Assembly (NCBI GenBank): GCA_030537135.1
Contig: JAUNOP010000013.1
Coordinates: 1-53,825, forward strand
Length of the DNA: 53,825 nucleotides
Reading direction: 5' to 3'
DNA from: Eubacteriales bacterium
GTDB taxonomy: Bacteria > Bacillota > Clostridia > Lachnospirales > Lachnospiraceae
Positions 3,928 through 46,350 of this stretch are shown piece after piece. The position numbers were made by a program, and so were the translations under genes. The notes under the pieces are model-generated. The model saw nothing but the letters and a program-made list of their open reading frames with translations. It was not told the origin of the DNA and did not search any database. Numbering within the stretch: position 1 is the stretch's first letter; each line of letters opens with the position of its first letter.

Positions 3928-4296
3928 TCAGGCTTCCGCAGCGGCTTCAATCTCGCACAGCGCGTTCTTGGGCAGGGTCTTGACGGCAACGCAGCTGCGA
4001 GCGGGATTGGAGATGAAATACTTTGCGTAAACTGCGTTAAAAGCGGCAAAGTCGCCCATATCGGACAGGAAGCAGGTAGTCTTGAAAACCTTCTCTGCGC
4101 TGCTGCCAGCAGCCTCCAAAATGGCGATCACATTCTTGCAGCTCTGCTCAGCTTGTGAAGTGATGTCGGCAGGCATCTCACCGGTAGCAGGGTTAACGGG
4201 CAGCTGACCGGAAGTGTAGACAGTACTGCCGACCACGAAAGCCTGAGAGTAAGGGCCGATAGCACCGGGAGCTTTTTTTGTGTTGATGACTTTCAT
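3928..4296 (-). CDS. ridA: RidA-family enamine/imine deaminase
   Basis: 122 residues from MKVINTKKAPGAIGPYSQA. The family signatures are APGAIGPYSQA, the strand TVYTSGQLPVNPATGEM, and the C-terminal substrate-binding region NPARSCVAVKTLPKNALCEIEAAA with its conserved Arg and Glu. RidA hydrolyses 2-aminoacrylate and related imines to 2-oxoacids and ammonia. It is the last gene of the minus-strand operon, directly after a C-S lyase whose reaction yields exactly this intermediate. A longer start at 4338 exists but would overlap the upstream gene's stop; the chosen start matches the usual family N-terminus. Confidence 0.92.
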   Translation of the reverse strand: MKVINTKKAPGAIGPYSQAFVVGSTVYTSGQLPVNPATGEMPADITSQAEQSCKNVIAILEAAGSSAEKVFKTTCFLSDMGDFAAFNAVYAKYFISNPARSCVAVKTLPKNALCEIEAAAEA

Positions 4297-4327
4297 AAGA
4301 TAATACTTCGTTTCAATGATAAATTTA

Positions 4328-5521
4328 TTACTTGACATACTTGGAATAAGTGGTCTTCATGCGCTGAAGAGCTTCTTCCACATAACGGGTGGGGCAGGCC
4401 AGATTCCAACGCTCGAAGCCTTCGCCCTGTGCGCCGAAGACATAGCCTTCATCGAAGAAGAGCTTGGCTTCCTCATGGTTAATACGCTCCAGCTCCTTGT
4501 AGTCGATGCCCAGACCACGCCAATCTATCCACAGCAGATAGGTGGCTTCCAGATCAATGACCTGAATCTGGGGGAACTCTTTGGCAAGGAAATCCACCAC
4601 CAGCTTGCGATTGGTATCGATCACAGCGTTGCATTCATCCAGCCAGTCGGCGCAGTGTTCATAAGCTGCCTGACAAGCTACATAGCCCAGAACGTTGCAC
4701 TTGGGGTTAGGGTTGGTCTGTTTCAGGCATTTCAGATAATGTTCGCGCAGCTCTGGGTTCGGAACAAAGATGTTGGAAGTCTGGAGGCCGGCCAGATTGA
4801 AGGTCTTGCTGGGAGCAGTGCAGACGATGCAGTTCTGCTCCACTTCCTTGCTCAGGGAAGCGTAGACAATGTGTTCGTGGCCGGGCATGATGAGGTCAAA
4901 ATGAATCTCATCCGAAACCACCAGAACATGATGCTTCAGGCAGATGTCTGCAATTTTCTGGAGTTCTTCACGGGTCCAGACACGACCACAGGGATTCTGC
5001 GGGCTGCACAGGATACACAGCTTGGTGCTTTCGTCTGCAGCCTTCTTCTCAAAATCCGTAAAGTCGATCTCATAGTGGTCACCGCAGCGCAAAAGCGGGC
5101 TGTCCACTAGCTTGCGAGCGTTGTCGAGAACCGCATGGTACATGGGATAGTAGATAGGGGTCATCAGCAGAACGCCCTCACCGGGTTGGGTAAAGAACTT
5201 AACGCAATGGAAGAAGGCATCTACAACACCATGCTCCGGCAGAATCCACTCCGGCTTTGCATCCCAGTTGTGGCGAGTCTTCATCCAGTTGCAGACGGCG
5301 TTCAGGTAGGAGGGAGTGGGATTCTCATAGCCCAGAACAGAATTGTCAATTTTCTCTTTGAGGGCTTCCTTGATCTCCGGGGCAGTCTCAAATTCCATGT
5401 CGGCCACGGAGAAAGGAATAATGTCCTCGTCCGGCTTGATACCGTTGGCAACCAGTTCGTTCCACTTCTTGGAACCTGTGCCAAAACGATTGTTAACAGT
5501 TTTAAAATTGTAGCTCATCAC
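4328..5521 (-). CDS. patB: PatB/MalY-type PLP C-S lyase (cystathionine beta-lyase)
   Basis: 397 residues, fold-type I aminotransferase of the MalY/PatB subfamily. The PLP-binding lysine is K239 in the SKTFNLAGLQ motif. D204 of SDEIHFDL and N176 in SPQNPCGR are the usual cofactor contacts. PFSVADMEF near the N-terminus is a MalY/PatB hallmark. Such enzymes cleave cystathionine or cysteine S-conjugates to a thiol, ammonia and pyruvate through 2-aminoacrylate. Full length for the family. AGGAGG lies upstream of the ATG. Its neighbours (permease, thioredoxin-fold protein, RidA) suggest uptake and cleavage of a sulfur amino acid or conjugate. The exact substrate cannot be read from sequence. Confidence 0.9.
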   Translation of the reverse strand: MMSYNFKTVNNRFGTGSKKWNELVANGIKPDEDIIPFSVADMEFETAPEIKEALKEKIDNSVLGYENPTPSYLNAVCNWMKTRHNWDAKPEWILPEHGVVDAFFHCVKFFTQPGEGVLLMTPIYYPMYHAVLDNARKLVDSPLLRCGDHYEIDFTDFEKKAADESTKLCILCSPQNPCGRVWTREELQKIADICLKHHVLVVSDEIHFDLIMPGHEHIVYASLSKEVEQNCIVCTAPSKTFNLAGLQTSNIFVPNPELREHYLKCLKQTNPNPKCNVLGYVACQAAYEHCADWLDECNAVIDTNRKLVVDFLAKEFPQIQVIDLEATYLLWIDWRGLGIDYKELERINHEEAKLFFDEGYVFGAQGEGFERWNLACPTRYVEEALQRMKTTYSKYVK

Positions 5522-5533
5522 AAAAACCTCCTG

Positions 5534-5824
5534 TTATTGTTTTGCTTTTACAAGTGCTTCATTCAAGTTAAGGGTCTTGGTGCCATCTTCAAAGACAAAG
5601 CATGGCAGACCAATCTTGCCATTCTCTACATAATCCGATTTACCGGAAACCATGCGCAGGTCGGCATAGACGGCATCGTGTTCATGCAGGGCGAGAAATT
5701 TTTTCAAATCGGTAAGGCTGGCAGAAAGGTCGGCAAAGGAAAATGCGACCCCAGCATCCTTGCACTTTATGATGGAATAAAGAGTGTTCGGGCAGAGATG
5801 ACTGCCTACAATGGTCATTTTCAT
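5534..5824 (-). CDS. Glutaredoxin-like thioredoxin-fold protein
   Basis: 96 residues. The fold pattern is a first strand MKMTIVGSHLCPNT with one N-terminal cysteine (C11, in CPNT instead of CxxC), a middle FADLSASLTDLKKFLALHE, and the cis-proline loop GLPCFVFEDGTKTLN that also carries a cysteine. This matches glutaredoxin-related proteins common in Clostridia. It lies between the permease and C-S lyase genes with short gaps (13 bp each side) in one operon. A role in reducing disulfides or handling the released thiol is inferred. Confidence 0.75.
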   Translation of the reverse strand: MKMTIVGSHLCPNTLYSIIKCKDAGVAFSFADLSASLTDLKKFLALHEHDAVYADLRMVSGKSDYVENGKIGLPCFVFEDGTKTLNLNEALVKAKQ

Positions 5825-5837
5825 AGGAAGCCTCCTG

Positions 5838-7205
5838 TTAGTTTTGTGTAGAGTAGTCCACTATCAGGTCGTTTTCAAGGGTGACGTTCTTGCGGAAAAC
5901 CTTGCTGTACAGGATGCTGATCACGACCAGCACGGTGAGGAAGCCGACCACCAGAATGGACAGGTTTGCGAACAGTGAGTAGGACAGTACGCAGAGGATA
6001 ACAATGCCCAAGATGGACAGAGCCTTTGCCTTGGCCGGAGAAACCTTCAGAGTGGAGTTCCTCAAAATATCGCCATACTTATTTGCCAGTGCCAGAAGAG
6101 CGAAGCAAACCAGAAGTTTGCACAGCAAGGAGTTGGCAGTGGTGAACTTTGTGATAACAGAAATGTCCAAATGGACGGCCAGCGGAATCATACCGATAAT
6201 GTAGAAGAAGGTCAGGAGCTTGTAAGGAACGCCCTTGCTGCTAACGGTTCCAAGACCGTGGGGCAGCATTCCATCGTCACAGGCCACCAGCAAGGGCTTA
6301 GTAATCCATGACAGAGTAGAATTCAAGGTGGTTGCGGTTGCACCCAGTGCAGCGCCGATAACAAACAGGTACATGATGGCTTTCGGCATGGTGGCCTGTG
6401 CCACCAGTGTCAGGGGCTGATCTGCAACATTTGCAATAGGGAGAACACCAGCTGCGACCAGTGCAATCAGAACGTAAACAACACCAACGGACAGAGTGGA
6501 AATGATCATGACCTTAGGGATGGTATGGCCTGCATCTTTGGCTTCGCCGCCCAGTTCTGCAATGAACTGCGCACCAGCAGTGGCAGAACTGAGCAGTGCC
6601 AGCGTGGAGATGAACATCATGGGACCATTAAAGAAAAGGTTCTGGGTATTGAAGATGTACTCAAGGTTGACCTTGGGCAGACCGAAGATCACGAACAGAG
6701 CCAGACCACCGAACAGCGCAATGCTCATGACCTTATTCAACACAGCGGCGGACTTTGTACTCACAAGGTTCATGGCATAGAACAGGGTCAAAATGACCAT
6801 AGCGGCAATATGCTGATTGATGCTGGGAACAATACTTTCCAGATAGGCGCCAAAGCTCAGTGCATACTGAGAAACCGCAACGCTGTAGGATGTTACGTGC
6901 AAAAGCAGGTAGACCATGCCAGTACTCTTGCCTATCAGGCGGCTGCAGTAACGGTAAGGGCCACCGGTGGTGGGAACCGCTGAGCTAAGAATGGCCACCG
7001 GAAAAATACAGGTGATTGTTAGAAATGGTGAGAGAAGAAAAGCTAACACAACGCCGGTGCCGGTCATACCAATGGCAACGCCTGTAGAGGACATGATACC
7101 AGCGCCGACGATCTGGCCGATGGCAATTGCCATCAGATCCCAGAAGCCCAAGTTGCGGATCAGCTTGCTCTCCTGCCGTTTTGTACTCATAGAAATCGTA
7201 CTCAT
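5838..7205 (-). CDS. APC-superfamily amino acid permease
   Basis: 455 residues with about twelve hydrophobic segments. The N-terminal signature LGFWDLMAIAIGQIVGAGIMSSTG is the helix-1 substrate site of APC transporters, and TTGGPYRYCSRLIG is the conserved segment after helix 2. AAAGGAGGAATTTCT directly precedes the chosen ATG; an internal ATG 15 bases later is possible. First gene of the operon with the glutaredoxin-like, C-S lyase and RidA genes, so it probably imports the lyase substrate. Two operator-like palindromes lie 46-80 bases upstream. Substrate not determinable. Confidence 0.85.
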   Translation of the reverse strand: MSTISMSTKRQESKLIRNLGFWDLMAIAIGQIVGAGIMSSTGVAIGMTGTGVVLAFLLSPFLTITCIFPVAILSSAVPTTGGPYRYCSRLIGKSTGMVYLLLHVTSYSVAVSQYALSFGAYLESIVPSINQHIAAMVILTLFYAMNLVSTKSAAVLNKVMSIALFGGLALFVIFGLPKVNLEYIFNTQNLFFNGPMMFISTLALLSSATAGAQFIAELGGEAKDAGHTIPKVMIISTLSVGVVYVLIALVAAGVLPIANVADQPLTLVAQATMPKAIMYLFVIGAALGATATTLNSTLSWITKPLLVACDDGMLPHGLGTVSSKGVPYKLLTFFYIIGMIPLAVHLDISVITKFTTANSLLCKLLVCFALLALANKYGDILRNSTLKVSPAKAKALSILGIVILCVLSYSLFANLSILVVGFLTVLVVISILYSKVFRKNVTLENDLIVDYSTQN

Positions 7206-7250
7206 AGAAATTCCTCCTTTGAGATAACAAAATGTGTAGCATGTAACTGT

Positions 7251-7285
7251 GTTAAGCTGCTTAACTTCTTGTTAAGAAGCTTAAC
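7251..7285. promoter_or_regulatory. Tandem operator palindromes, likely MarR binding sites
   Basis: GTTAAGCTGCTTAAC (7251-7265) and GTTAAGAAGCTTAAC (7271-7285) share the half sites GTTAAG-N3-CTTAAC and are spaced 20 bp centre to centre, about two helical turns. A TTGACA on the minus strand (7306-7301) lies just upstream of them, so they would cover the start of the permease operon promoter, although I see no convincing -10. The divergent MarR gene is the natural candidate regulator. Confidence 0.7.
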
Positions 7286-7411
7286 ATAATGTCGAATCGG
7301 TGTCAATGTCTTTTTGCGAAAAAATCTAAGTTTGTGCAGAACACACAAGAAAAAGAGCGGATTTTTGTCTAGATTTCCAGCCAACACTTTGATATACTGA
7401 AAAGGGATAAG

Positions 7412-7641
7412 TTAAGGCAACACCACATAATAATAGCGTGTGGGTTGCATCATAAAAATAGGCAGTGATTTGTCAAGGGAAGCTCTGATTAAATCTCCTG
7501 GATGGCTGGTCGAATAAATTTCGTGGCCAGATGCAGCAGCTATACGGTTATGAGCAAGTAGCGAAGCGGATTGCGAATTTCCGCTTGACTCAGAGCTTCC
7601 CAAGTCCGGTGTGCATCGCTTATTGTGTGATGCTGCCTTAA
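7412..7641. mobile_element. MITE-like element with TTAA-flanked inverted ends
   Basis: A ~230-bp non-coding element. The left end TTAAGGCAACACCACATAA (7412-) is the imperfect inverse of the right end (to 7641, read back as TTAAGGCAGCATCACACAA). An inner pair GGGAAGCTCTGA (7478-7489) and its complement (ending 7601) adds a second stem. Inside is a ~49-bp block at 7536-7584 that recurs at 14231-14280 and, diverged, near 10320. It encodes no transposase. It sits between the permease operon and marR in what looks like the marR leader. Confidence 0.65.
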
Positions 7642-7664
7642 GAAGCTTTATGAGGAGAATTTCT

Positions 7665-8132
7665 ATGAAACAATATTCTGTAGCAAAAAAAGCGGATATT
7701 CTGCATCAGGCAGCTATGCTTTATATGTCGTCCAATATTCCGATTGACTATGGGACGGGAGAGGAATATACTCCCGTAGAAGTGCATTTGCTGGAGTATA
7801 TCGTAGACCACCCAGGTAAAACGGTGACAGAGCTTTCGTTGGATTTCGATAAGACAAAAGCAGCTATTTCCCAGATGCTGCGGAAAATCAAAGACAAAGG
7901 GCTAATCGAACACCGGGAAGCTCCTGACAGCAAGAAAAAACAGCTCTACTATGCTACCCCGAAGGGACAGGAGCTGAACCAGACGCACATGTGTTACGAT
8001 GACCGCGTGTTTGGAAGGACGCTGGAGCTGATGCAAGAACGCTGTTCAGATGAGGAAATCGAAACCTGTTTCCATGTCCTGGAAGAGTTTGCGATTGCTC
8101 GCAGACAGAAACATTACCGTTCAAAGGTGTAA
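7665..8132 (+). CDS. MarR-family transcriptional regulator
   Basis: 155 residues from MKQYSVAKKADIL. The start is chosen for GAGGAGA seven bases upstream. Residues ~35-110 form a winged helix (YTPVEVHLLEYIVDHPG, KTVTELSLDFDKTKAAISQMLRKIKDKGLIEHREAPDSKKKQLYYATPKG). It is divergent from the permease/C-S lyase operon and probably represses it through the palindromes at 7251-7285. MarR proteins often respond to small thiol or aromatic ligands. A pre-insertion version of the same operator can be reconstructed just upstream of this gene. Confidence 0.88.
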   Translation: MKQYSVAKKADILHQAAMLYMSSNIPIDYGTGEEYTPVEVHLLEYIVDHPGKTVTELSLDFDKTKAAISQMLRKIKDKGLIEHREAPDSKKKQLYYATPKGQELNQTHMCYDDRVFGRTLELMQERCSDEEIETCFHVLEEFAIARRQKHYRSKV

Positions 8133-8525: not shown

Positions 8526-8923
8526 ATAATGTTCTAATTATTGAGGATGATAAAGAAATATGCTTTATGATAAAAGACCATCTGGAAAAATACAATTATC
8601 AAGTATTCTTCACACTTACTGGTGTGAATGCGATTGAACGCGTAAAAGAATTAACCCCAGATTTAATTATTTTAGATTTAATGCTTCCCTTTATCAGTGG
8701 AGATGAGTTAATCAGAACTATTAGAAAATTTTCAAATGTACCCGTAATCGTTGTTTCTGCGAAAAGTTTAACATTTAACAAAGTCGAACTCTTACGCTTG
8801 GGCGCTGACGACTACTTAACAAAGCCATTTGATTTGGACGAATTACTAGTGTATTGTCAAGTTGATATTTATGGCAATTGTGCCCGGGGATTTTACTCCC
8901 CGGTTGATTCAAATTTGGGATAA
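8522..8923 (+). pseudogene. OmpR-type response regulator truncated by an insertion sequence
   Basis: The receiver domain is intact from residue 1 to ~109: acidic pocket EDD (8-10), phospho-acceptor D52 in LILDLMLP, conserved K101 in TKPFDLDELL. The frame then enters the IS630 end at 8849 and reads a foreign 24-residue tail (VYCQVDIYGNCARGF...). The DNA-binding domain is missing and no kinase gene follows. AAAGGAG precedes the ATG. A lone receiver could still be made, but the output domain is lost. Confidence 0.85.
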
Positions 8924-9886
8924 AGAGAAATCAATTTATTGCGGGCTTCCTGTGCTGGATACTTTTTATACAGAGAACCCAGCACAGGAGTATTTAGATT
9001 ATCCATAACCAAAATGATTTTTTCATGTTCCGGATAGCACTCCGTTAACAGATATTTGATTTCCTCTGCCCAGTCAAGTGCGGTTCTTGTTTCACGGACG
9101 CTGCTGTAACGCCATCCTCGTAAGGGTTCTACAAAAATACTGCAGGTCCCTTCCCGAACATATTCCGAATCAATCTTTTGGTTATCCCCTGGACGCATAG
9201 GAAGAGGGGTACGTTTTTCCTCCAGGCACTGGTAGGGCTTTTCGTCCATGCATACCACTGGGAGATCCGGGTTATAAGGCATTTCGTAAATATCAAGGAT
9301 ATCTTCCATGTTTGCGACAAACTCAGCATTCTCCTTTGGGGGGATACACCAGTAGTCGTTTATGTGAGGCCGAAGTTCATTTTTTTTAGAACAAGCCGGA
9401 TCGATTCGTGGCTGAGCGGTTCACCCAATTCAAGCCGGACCTGCTTTTCTAAAAGGCGCAGTGTCCAACGGACACGGCCATCCGGAGCAGGGCTGCAGGC
9501 AATGCGGATCAATTCCGCTTCCATCCGGCCATCTATTTTCCGCTTTGCATTTGAGCGTGGATTCCGGTTTATTTTGATAATTGCAGGAATACCGCCATTC
9601 ACATAAGCAGAAACAATATTAGAAACCGTTGCTTTACTGACGCCAAAAGCTTTGGCAATCTGCATTTGCGTAAGGTGCTTTGGGGCATTTTCATCAAGCT
9701 CTAATAATATTTGACAGCGCCGAATTGTCATTTTGCATGTTTTTTTATTATGAATCGTAGCATGGAGGATTTTTTTATCTTCATCTGATAAAAGAATTTT
9801 GTAGGTTCTTTTTCCAGCCATAGGCTCACCTTCCTTTTTCTTTTATCATAACATAAATCACCATAATTTACAATTTGACAATACAC
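8849..9886 (-). mobile_element. IS630-family insertion sequence, defective
   Basis: 1038 bp bounded by inverted ends GTGTATTGTCAAGTTG (from 8849) and, at the other side, the complement GTGTATTGTCAAATTG (ending 9886). Both are flanked by TA (8847-8848 and 9887-9888), the standard IS630/Tc1 target. The transposase is on the minus strand. The left flank is a response regulator gene while the right flank is a different transposase, so the element sits on a junction between two unrelated sequences. Confidence 0.85.
8893..9821 (-). pseudogene. IS630-family transposase, two frames, catalytic Glu missing
   Basis: The first frame (9821-9360, 153 residues) carries two helix-turn-helix regions (TQMQIAKAFGVSKATVSNIV). 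The second (to 8893) carries the DDE core with VVCMDEKPYQ and IILVMDNLNT, the first two aspartates. The frames meet at a run of eight A on the minus strand (9387-9380): reading one base twice joins them, as in -1 frameshifting, but a one-base deletion looks the same. The C-terminus goes from KKYPAQEARN straight to KLISLYPKFESTGE, skipping the HGSWLNMAE segment with the third catalytic residue. The copy is therefore probably inactive. Confidence 0.85.
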
Positions 9887-9888
9887 TA

Positions 9889-10144
9889 GTTGTCTGTCAG
9901 CGTGAAATGGAATCAAGACAGTTTTTGCCTCTTTTTCCTTTTTGTACTTTTCGGTTTCTGCTTTTGCTTCATTTTTTGCCCATGTGATGACATCATCTCT
10001 TGTCGGACCATGCTCGGCCAAAAGCTGTTCCAACGTTCCTAACTTACGGACGATAGCTGAAGTGGTGCTGCCATTTGCTTTTACATAAGATTTACAAATA
10101 TAAAATGATTCTGCGTTTTTAGATTTCGCTATGTGAAGACTCAT
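9889..10144 (-). pseudogene. N-terminal fragment of an IS1634-family transposase
   Basis: About 85 residues remain (MSLHIAKSKNAESFYICKSY ... TVLIPFHADRQL), the usual N-terminal part of IS1634-type transposases of ~550-600 residues. The frame is cut at the TA bordering the IS630 copy at 9887; everything after HADRQL is gone and is not found on the far side of the IS630. Confidence 0.75.
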
Positions 10145-14120: not shown

Positions 14121-14290
14121 TTTTTAACGTATCAAGCAAGTCTATCGCTTCCATTTCGCAGAGAAATAAGCGGTGAGTGGGAGACTTGCTTGTCTCAGAA
14201 GGGGTGAGGATCCCTCTGAGAAGCTGCGATAGCAGCTATACGGTTATGAGCAAGCAGCGAAGCGGATTGCGAATTTCCGCGTGACTGATA
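14121..14290. repeat. Dispersed hairpin repeats (two families joined)
   Basis: Bases 14126-14195 contain AAGCAAGTCT and, inverted, AGACTTGCTT around TTCGCAGAGAAATAAGCGG. A like unit occurs near 16030, 29930 and (inverted) 46270. Bases 14231-14280 are the block (GCAGCTATACGGTTATGAGC and onward) also found inside the MITE-like element at 7536. The composite separates the MATE gene from its MerR regulator. Confidence 0.7.
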
Positions 14291-15938: not shown

Positions 15939-16027
15939 AATCCATTTTGCAGGTGAAATTTTGGAGTAATTGGATTGCAAAGATATTTTCTACAGCAGAG
16001 ATTTGGAGAAATATTCACATGATTAAG

Positions 16028-16110
16028 GACGTTCCCCACTTCCATTTTGCAGAGAAATAAGCGGTGAGTGGGGGACTTGCTTGTCTCAGAAGGGATGAGG
16101 ATCCCATAGG
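16028..16110. repeat. Dispersed hairpin repeat
   Basis: GTTCCCCACT (16031-16040) and AGTGGGGGAC (about 16067-16076) bracket TTTTGCAGAGAAATAAGCGG, the same core as at 14154-14173 and 29949-29968. The gap 15939-16406 also holds a terminator at 16273; I see no gene in it. Confidence 0.65.
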
Positions 16111-16406: not shown

Positions 16407-17082
16407 ATGTTCATTCATGCAGTTCCAGATAATCGTGGCAAAAAAGACGGATATTACTGCTCCTTGGTAGAATCTCATAGAATAAATGGAGTCCCGAAGC
16501 ATAAAACGGTGCTTTCTTTCGGCTTTATTGCTGCCGAAAGGCTTCCTTATCTGAAAGCGGCATTTAATCGTGGTGATCCGGAAGCTATCTTGGAACAGGA
16601 AAAACGTAGTCAAGAAAAACGAAAGGGGATGCTATAATTATAAAACAGCATTCAGATGATAAGAAACCAGTTATTGAATACATTGCAAAGATTACACTCT
16701 CCAATGGAGAAACCATCGAAAAATCTGTATCCACTATCGGCGATTTTCCATCCCTTGAGGACTTTGACCTCTCCACAAGGGATGGCTTCCTTGTGGATTT
16801 TGACCGCCTGGAGAAGACGATCCTTGAAACAAGCAGAAAACTTAACCGCGAAATCTCTAAGGAATTTCTCCGGGCATCGTCTAAAAAAACAGAAAACCCA
16901 AGGAAAAATAGTCTCCCCGGGAAGTTACGCTTGAATCAGCCCCATCGGAGTGTGTCTACATATCGATTGACGATATCGGCGTCAAGCACCAGAAAGAGTC
17001 CCGCGAAGAAGGCTCCGTAAGAAACTACAAATACGTTGAGAATACAGTTGCCCATATCCAATTAAGAAGAGATGCCGCGTGA
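16407..17082 (+). pseudogene. Insertion-sequence transposase remnant, copy B
   Basis: GAGGAGGCG precedes an ATG opening a 76-residue segment like the N-terminus of IS1634-type transposases (YYCSLVESHRINGVPKHKTV, ERLPYLKAAFNRGDPE). A stop at 16635 follows, then the segment shared with positions 1-337, whose start codon here is ATA rather than ATG. After ~16925 a third frame carries VYISIDDIGVKHQKESREEG and NYKYVENTVAHIQ, a transposase core fragment with an aspartate pair, ending at a stop at 17080. The rest of the catalytic domain is absent. Family assignment is tentative. Confidence 0.65.
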
Positions 17083-29923: not shown

Positions 29924-29997
29924 AACGTATCAAACACGTTTCCCACTTCAATTTCGCAGAGAAATAAGCGGTGAGTGAGGGGCTTGTTTGTCCAGGT
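29924..29997. repeat. Dispersed hairpin repeat
   Basis: AACGTATCAAACACG leads into TTTCGCAGAGAAATAAGCGG (29949-29968) and GTGAGTGAGGGGC, matching the units at 14126 and 16030. It runs into an inverted piece (TTTGTCCAGGTTAGG) of the second repeat family seen at 30828 and 33511. The 427-bp gap 29799-30225 shows nothing else recognisable. Confidence 0.6.
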
Positions 29998-30225
29998 TAG
30001 GTAATGGGCGTTTCACGAATGTCTTGTATTTTTTTAGGATTTTCAATATAATGATGATGGTAAGGACAAAAGGTCAGGAATCCGATGCAGGCTTGTCTGC
30101 AATAGGGTTTTTGATCTTGGGACTCTACTCTAATATCATCATAATATATTTATAAGTAAGATTCAAGGGATTGTTTGCGGTTACTACTCGCAAAATACAG
30201 AAAGAAACGAGAAGGATGATTGATT

Positions 30226-46179: not shown

Positions 46180-46350
46180 AGTCAAGCGGATATTCGCAAT
46201 ACCCATAGGGCAGATATCTGCTTTGCTGCTTGCTCATAATCAAATAACTGCTTCGCAGTTTATCAGGAGGGCTACAAGCAAGTCCCCACTCACTGCTTCA
46301 GTTGCGAAAAGCAATAAGCAGTGGGTGGGGACTTGCTTGATACGTTAAAT
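46180..46350. repeat. Dispersed hairpin repeats in inverse orientation
   Basis: GCAGATATCTGCTTTGCTGC and TTGCTCAT (around 46200-46230) are the reverse complement of the block at 10319 and 14245. AAGCAAGTCCCCACTCACTG (46277-46296) and its inverse ending at ~46339 (CAGTGGGTGGGGACTTGCTT) build a long hairpin of the first family, followed by GATACGTTAA. The gap 46094-46491 contains this and the promoter at 46428 but no gene. Confidence 0.65.

Follow-up and report, generated by a model that had tools for sequence, protein, structure and literature searches.

What does a 230-bp insertion between an amino acid permease operon and the divergent gene for a MarR-family regulator do to the control of either? 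The insertion lies in a contig of 53,825 nucleotides from a lachnospiraceal Eubacteriales bacterium (GCA_030537135.1, JAUNOP010000013.1; hereafter the window), and the original prediction was that it had split a MarR operator ahead of marR, so that autoregulation of marR would be unlinked from the intact operators of the permease operon. The reading that we prefer, at a probability of roughly 0.7, is that a composite miniature inverted-repeat transposable element (MITE) sits in the marR leader beside intact MarR operators, and that its effect on this leader is the primary one. The observations that carry it are the anatomy of the element, the family to which its terminal inverted repeats (TIRs) belong, the conserved twin palindromes, a -10 element shared with two orthologous loci, and a spacing from this -10 to marR that, once the insert is subtracted, equals that of one ortholog.

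Twin palindromes over a probable permease promoter

The permease and marR genes are divergent, and the 230-bp element occupies their intergenic region (Table 1). Besides its MarR_2 match, the marR product exceeded the cut-off of the Pfam MarR profile (25.1 bits against 24.6), while a Pfam scan of the 96-residue frame beside the permease gene returned no match. We found the same gene order in G745 (loci L212 and L260), with identities of 69% for marR, 76% for the permease, 69% for the small frame and 75% for PatB, and identified orthologs of marR (64%) and the permease (75%) in G772 (L261); both genomes belong to another genus. An ortholog of the RidA-type gene at 3928-4338 was not found within the G745 stretch. 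Across these genome searches, only G745 and G772 carry marR orthologs at 60% identity or more: the best other match among 61 genomes, comprising the organism's own and its relatives, was 38% identical, 397 genomes drawn evenly from the family gave 21 matches with E up to 1e-12, and 395 relatives of G745 gave four with E up to 1e-25. Named genomes contributed two further marR loci (48-49% identity), each with a PatB-type gene nearby and no permease match in the DNA examined.

Each species is represented by a single genome in the set that we searched, which contains no element-free allele of the species concerned. At the orthologous loci (L212, L260 and L261) the outer TIR of the element is absent, the lowest count being 7-8 mismatches of 22. 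Alignment of the whole intergenic region to L212 was uninformative, scoring 143.9 with the element and 141.0 without it.

Table 1. Features of the PatB-permease-marR locus, in window coordinates.
Feature	Position	Strand	Basis
PatB-family C-S lyase	4328..5521	-	TIGR04350, 430.9 bits (cut-off 340)
96-aa reading frame, family unassigned by Pfam	5534..5824	-	Frame of 69% identity in the equivalent position of G745
Amino acid permease (APC)	5838..7205	-	Pfam AA_permease_2, 118.5 bits
Palindrome 1, probable MarR operator GTTAAGCTGCTTAAC	7251..7265		Conserved twin in L212 and L261
Palindrome 2, probable MarR operator GTTAAGAAGCTTAAC	7271..7285		Conserved twin in L212 and L261
Probable permease promoter, TTGACA-17-TAAGCT	7278..7306	-	Second hexamer within palindrome 2
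Probable marR extended -10, TGATATACT	7390..7398	+	Counterparts in L212 and L261
Left junction, half-site GTTAAG	7411..7416	+	Full-site PWM, -9.7 bits
Outer MITE-like element (230 bp, TTAA at each end included)	7412..7641		Direct sequence reading
Left terminal inverted repeat, TTAAGGCAACACCACATAATAA	7412..7433	+	Sequence
Outward promoter-like site towards permease, TTGACA-16-TATGAT	7449..7476	-	11/12 consensus match
CAAG, direct repeat on the left of the inner element	7474..7477		Sequence
Probable nested element, bounded by GGAAGCTCTGA/TCAGAGCTTCC	7478..7600	+	Sub-threshold RF01699 match; inverted repeat
56-nt interspersed repeat core	7535..7590	+	Repeat matches in own genome
CAAG, direct repeat on the right of the inner element	7601..7604		Sequence
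Right terminal inverted repeat, TTAAGGCAGCATCACACAATAA	7620..7641	-	Sequence
Right junction, CTTAAGAAGCTTTAT	7637..7651	+	12/15 to palindrome 2; PWM, 3.2 bits
MarR-family regulator (marR), 155 aa	7665..8132	+	Pfam MarR_2, 36.5 bits (cut-off 27)

Two perfect copies of GTTAAGNNNCTTAAC, at 7251 and 7271, are the only ones in the 3.07-Mb genome; allowing one mismatch added two other places, while a reversed control sequence, at up to one mismatch, occurs at 16. Twin palindromes of the form GTTA-N7-TAAC, spaced by exactly 20 bp, are found in the window, in L212 (the same locus as L260) and in L261, and at these three loci only among the 850,853 bases compared (overlaps included). Counterparts of the probable permease promoter occupy the same place in both orthologous loci (TTGACA-17-TAATGT in L212 and TTGACA-17-TAAATT in L261). 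The second hexamers are poor, and that of the window was missed by our consensus scan. Conservation over a probable permease promoter makes the twins very likely MarR operators, and on these comparisons the site is a likely permease promoter, one that MarR could block. The part of the original prediction that concerned intact permease-side palindromes thus stands, the 20-bp spacing of the twins being kept at both orthologous loci. The layout resembles that of known MarR systems whose palindromic operators adjoin a divergent target, in that a winged-helix MarR protein adjoins permease and PatB genes and palindromes lie over the probable target promoter; it differs in that no NCBIfam model matched the window's MarR above its own cut-off.

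A PatB-type C-S lyase gene is present at 16 of the 44 loci that we compared as carrying relatives of the marR product (L010, L035, L036, L213, L214, L216-L221, L224, L229, L232, L233 and L260), which suggests a pairing of MarR with PatB across loci. At two of them (L224 and L229), a single GTTAA-N5-TTAAC palindrome lies between the marR and PatB genes.

A probably composite element of a TTAA-flanked family

The outer element proved to be as first described, a MITE-like sequence of 230 bp just ahead of marR (7412-7641, with marR starting at 7665) that has TTAA at both ends (7412-7415 and 7638-7641), and its 22-bp TIRs are alike at 19 of 22 bases. Its flanks read ...GGGATAAG on the left and GAAGCTTTAT on the right, and its target duplication is deduced from the flanking TTAA. 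Folded as DNA, the element surpasses shuffled sequences (z -3.5).

Within the organism's own genome (3.07 Mb, 91% complete) the TIR pair is present once, and apart from the two element ends there are five single TIR matches with 2-3 mismatches of a 21-mer. Among 64 genomes of the genus, a 19-mer TIR pattern with at most one mismatch gave 11 matches outside the own genome, none of which has an inverted partner with fewer than 6/19 mismatches within about 600 bases. As neither a second pair in the own genome nor any pair in the genus was found, no source of the element is seen there. The picture at the level of the order was different. In 392 genomes drawn evenly from the order, the own genome included, the TIR pattern with up to two mismatches matched in 12 genomes and a reversed control pattern in none. 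TTAA-type TIR matches occur in five genomes from two other families of the order (G285, G305, G321, G334 and G357), ten of them in G305, and six genomes (G146, G249, G328, G383, G428 and G447) have one match each without a partner; the matches in L198 and L199 resemble, by eye, the start of a protein gene. Outside the window, 9 of the 21 fetched loci contain a TIR partner; these pairs measure 52 to 226 bp from one end to the other and are bounded by TTAA on either side, although this TTAA is not independent evidence because the search pattern includes it; the other 12 lack a partner, some of them at contig ends. Further TTAA-flanked pairs were thus seen in other genomes of the order and not in the own genome or genus, and it is at the level of the order that the outer family is multi-copy.

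Independent support for a TTAA-element family comes from G305, in which the copy at one locus (L209) contains a second TTAA element and reads GAAAATTC-TTAA-[insert]-TTAA-AAATA, and another copy with the same element end (L211) lacks it and reads GAAAATTC-TTAA-AAATA, where the contig ends. The insert-free form has a single TTAA, in one case and over the 5 bases that follow TTAA in L211. At a further locus (L210), an IS5-family transposase adjoins one TIR copy (NF033581, 152.4 bits, cut-off 140); the far end of this copy is off the contig, and the transposase match extends no further than position 224 of the 285 in the profile. TTAA fits a YTAR target of IS5, and an IS5-family transposase may have mobilised the outer element. 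Like TTAA MITEs related to IS5 elements, the window element is short and has TIRs and TTAA at both ends; it differs from them in that it probably holds a second element and that a search by TIR found no autonomous copy in its own genome.

Searches of viral contigs with the outer TIR gave no match to the window form and two stretches matching a relaxed form, without pairs by an exact-type pattern. Plasmids yielded no match to the element, and nine phage records matched it, every one inside the core stretch described below. An IS630-like copy at about 8844-9884 was considered as a source of the element and rejected, as its ends read differently. This insertion lies in two frames (HTH part 9363-9821, DDE_3 part 8896-9309), ends at CTAG by our reading and seems to interrupt two reading frames, of which one, response-regulator-like by eye, lies on one side and the other, 9728-10144, on the opposite side. 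The window also contains a 300-nt direct repeat, 97% identical, at 1-300 (the contig edge) and 16587-16886.

The outer element is probably composite, with a second inverted-repeat element nested inside it. Using cmscan, we obtained a match to the Rfam family Clostridiales-1 (RF01699) at exactly the 123 bases 7478-7600, with 18.6 bits and thus below the gathering threshold of 48 (E 0.83 in 3.6 kb, 0.092 in 401 bases). The inner element aligns with the family end to end and has the common TGAGCA ... AGC ... GCGGA ... GCGAA core; it differs in that its core hairpin is short and the last hairpin largely missing. The CAAG copies that bracket it would represent its target duplication, a repeat of 4 bp in a single case. 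In the own genome the inner TIR occurs at up to one mismatch in this copy alone, with eight further single matches at two mismatches, and none of 19 matching stretches in viral contigs has an exact inverted partner within 500 bases.

The 56-nt core of the inner element recurs, in full or in part, at no fewer than 40 other places in the own genome, a lower bound since 40 among 166 candidates were scored, and by itself folds no better than shuffled sequences (z -0.8). The element as a whole is matched in 28 of the 64 genus genomes, own included; besides its own full-length match, the genus matches listed cover element positions 118-186. RF01699 matches in 49 of these 64 genomes, above cut-off in 43, and in 0 of 14 control genomes. 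At E up to 1, a limit at which one control genome also matches, the own genome contains 30 places, five of them above cut-off and four overlapping copies of the 56-nt core (C25, C37, C46 and C98). The window's inner copy is absent from these 30, though its score would allow it, and was presumably lost in the first search pass. This absence and the shortness of the L211 sequence beyond TTAA (5 bases) slightly lower our confidence in the composite reading.

Clostridiales-1 is listed in PMC2864571 as a probable RNA. In one genome of the genus (G034; L139-L158), we took 20 of the 36 RF01699 copies, all of which start with TGATAC, and in 10 of the 20 an exact direct repeat of 5 bp is found 31-33 bases past the model end, compared with a mean of 0.57 and a maximum of 4 in 5,000 permutations of the pairs, at offsets that were picked after the rows had been inspected. 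The Clostridiales-1 'RNA' of this genome behaves as a mobile, MITE-like element.

Modular BOX-like intergenic repeats are present elsewhere in the window (14131-14286, 16022-16105, 29929-30012 and 46180-46339) and at L089-L108, built from the 56-nt core together with a GAGTGGGGGACTTGCTTG module and a CAGAAGGGGTGAGGACCCCTTCTGAG hairpin; several of them, as judged by eye, are located just upstream of a gene start. BOX, Correia (NEMIS) and RUP elements are small mobile repeats that, like the window element, are short and modular and are found near gene starts. Their sequences and taxa are other than those of the window element.

The empty site and a possible third operator

Excision of the element together with one TTAA yields GTTAAGAAGCTTTAT, which is identical to palindrome 2 at 13 of 15 positions and, as originally predicted, at all of the first 12. 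A match of 13/15 was reached in 12 of 10,000 dinucleotide shuffles of the joined 151-bp upstream region; in the same region, 12/15 was reached in 21 of 2,000 shuffles and an exact 12-base run in none of 2,000. Window-wide, the 12-mer has 10 matches with up to two mismatches, against a shuffle mean of 6.5 (sd 2.3), and as 10 of 100 shuffles reach 10, an enrichment is not clear.

Was this empty site a genuine third MarR operator, which the element split just past the marR start such that marR autorepression was lost and control of the permease operon kept? The rarity of the 13/15 match in shuffles favours such a site, as does its position just past the probable start, where an autorepressor could sit. 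With a position weight matrix (PWM) built from the six twin operators, the window's own among them, the empty site scores 9.1 bits and ranks third of 53,811 positions, behind the two window operators (20-22 bits), and the score falls at both junctions (Table 1). Built from the orthologs alone, the matrix gives 3.8 bits and rank 18 of 53,811. The right half of the empty site, ATAAAG, lacks the GTTA core present in 12 of 12 twin half-sites, a pattern with which the twins were themselves gathered. Nor is a third operator at marR conserved: in the stretch from the twins to marR, no position scores above -3.0 bits by PWM in L212 (198 bases) or above -1.5 bits in L261 (163 bases), and the best match in L212, 10/15, was reached by 1,337 of 2,000 shuffles when compared with its own operators and by 734 of 2,000 with those of the window.

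The right junction still matches at 12/15 because the element end supplies TTAA again; it keeps TTAAGAAGCTT, the sole change being the leading G to C, and the term 'split' is too strong for a site of which this much survives. Given the weak PWM score and the lack of a third site in the orthologs, we hold a weak third site to be possible at most. What stands of the original operator claim is the resemblance of the empty site to an operator, and disruption of a real autoregulatory operator is an unlikely explanation, with one bad half-site and a non-conserved sequence on the debit side.

We give better odds, a little short of even, to the view that the resemblance is a by-product of target choice: the TTAA target has four bases in common with GTTAA, the core of the operator, chance would account for the remainder, and marR would have had no operator of its own. 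The absence of a third site from both orthologs agrees with this, and the window has 208 other TTAA sites, one of which also reaches 12/15. Against it are the 12 in 10,000 shuffles that attain 13/15 and the 12-base run, which is seen at 0 of those 208 sites. In the mechanism that we favour, insertion in the marR leader would at most have weakened a poor, non-conserved third operator-like match, with a loss of marR autoregulation as a possible, secondary consequence, and the two intact palindromes would be MarR operators over the permease promoter that the insertion left untouched.

The marR leader and a possible outward promoter

The probable extended -10 of marR has counterparts at -70 in L212 (TGGTATAGT) and at -49 in L261 (TGATATAGT). 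That of the window lies 275 bases before the marR ATG, and subtraction of the 226 inserted bases leaves 49, the value of L261 and not that of L212. Without the insert, the leader agrees with that of L261 at 24 of 52 bases, with little in common beyond the -10. No good -35 was found for marR (best 8/12), and the two strands of the window together hold 18 instances of the -10 pattern; the presence of one near marR in each of the three loci is suggestive. This shared -10 would place the insertion in the marR leader, where the element probably begins about 13 bases past it.

The preferred mechanism is then that a non-autonomous, TTAA-flanked MITE entered the 5' leader of marR, and that its main effect is most likely a structured mRNA leader about 226 nt longer. 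As RNA, the 226 additional nucleotides would form a long closing stem and several hairpins, and the leader folds better than shuffled sequences (z -2.8); no terminator was found in 7180-7700.

The element perhaps also adds a promoter towards the permease. Its TTGACA-16-TATGAT site reads leftwards through the operators into the permease operon, and an 11/12 consensus match of this kind is reached by 4 of 1,000 shuffles of the element. That the permease is the main target is nevertheless rather improbable in our judgement: the site is a consensus match alone, the region overall contains two promoter-like sites against 1.1 (sd 1.0) in shuffles, and MarR bound to the twin operators could act as a roadblock. 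More speculative, and very improbable as we see it, is a role of the composite element as a portable structured leader, in which a Clostridiales-1-type RNA would set the MarR level in place of autoregulation, and TTAA-targeting elements would be recurrently drawn into operators of the GTTAA type, since the core of these coincides with their target.

Among the papers listed on TTAA/IS5 MITEs, on a MITE at a MarR operator, on MarR with PatB and on MITEs in gut Clostridia, the last too broad a set to judge, we found no account of the present case. The kinds of element and regulator seen here are already known, and the instance is new. It offers a concrete and testable example of the entry of a small mobile element into the leader of a regulator gene, next to probable operators that are defined by comparison. 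It also ties Clostridiales-1, a little-studied Rfam family, to mobile elements that duplicate their target, and this would alter how that 'RNA' is read.
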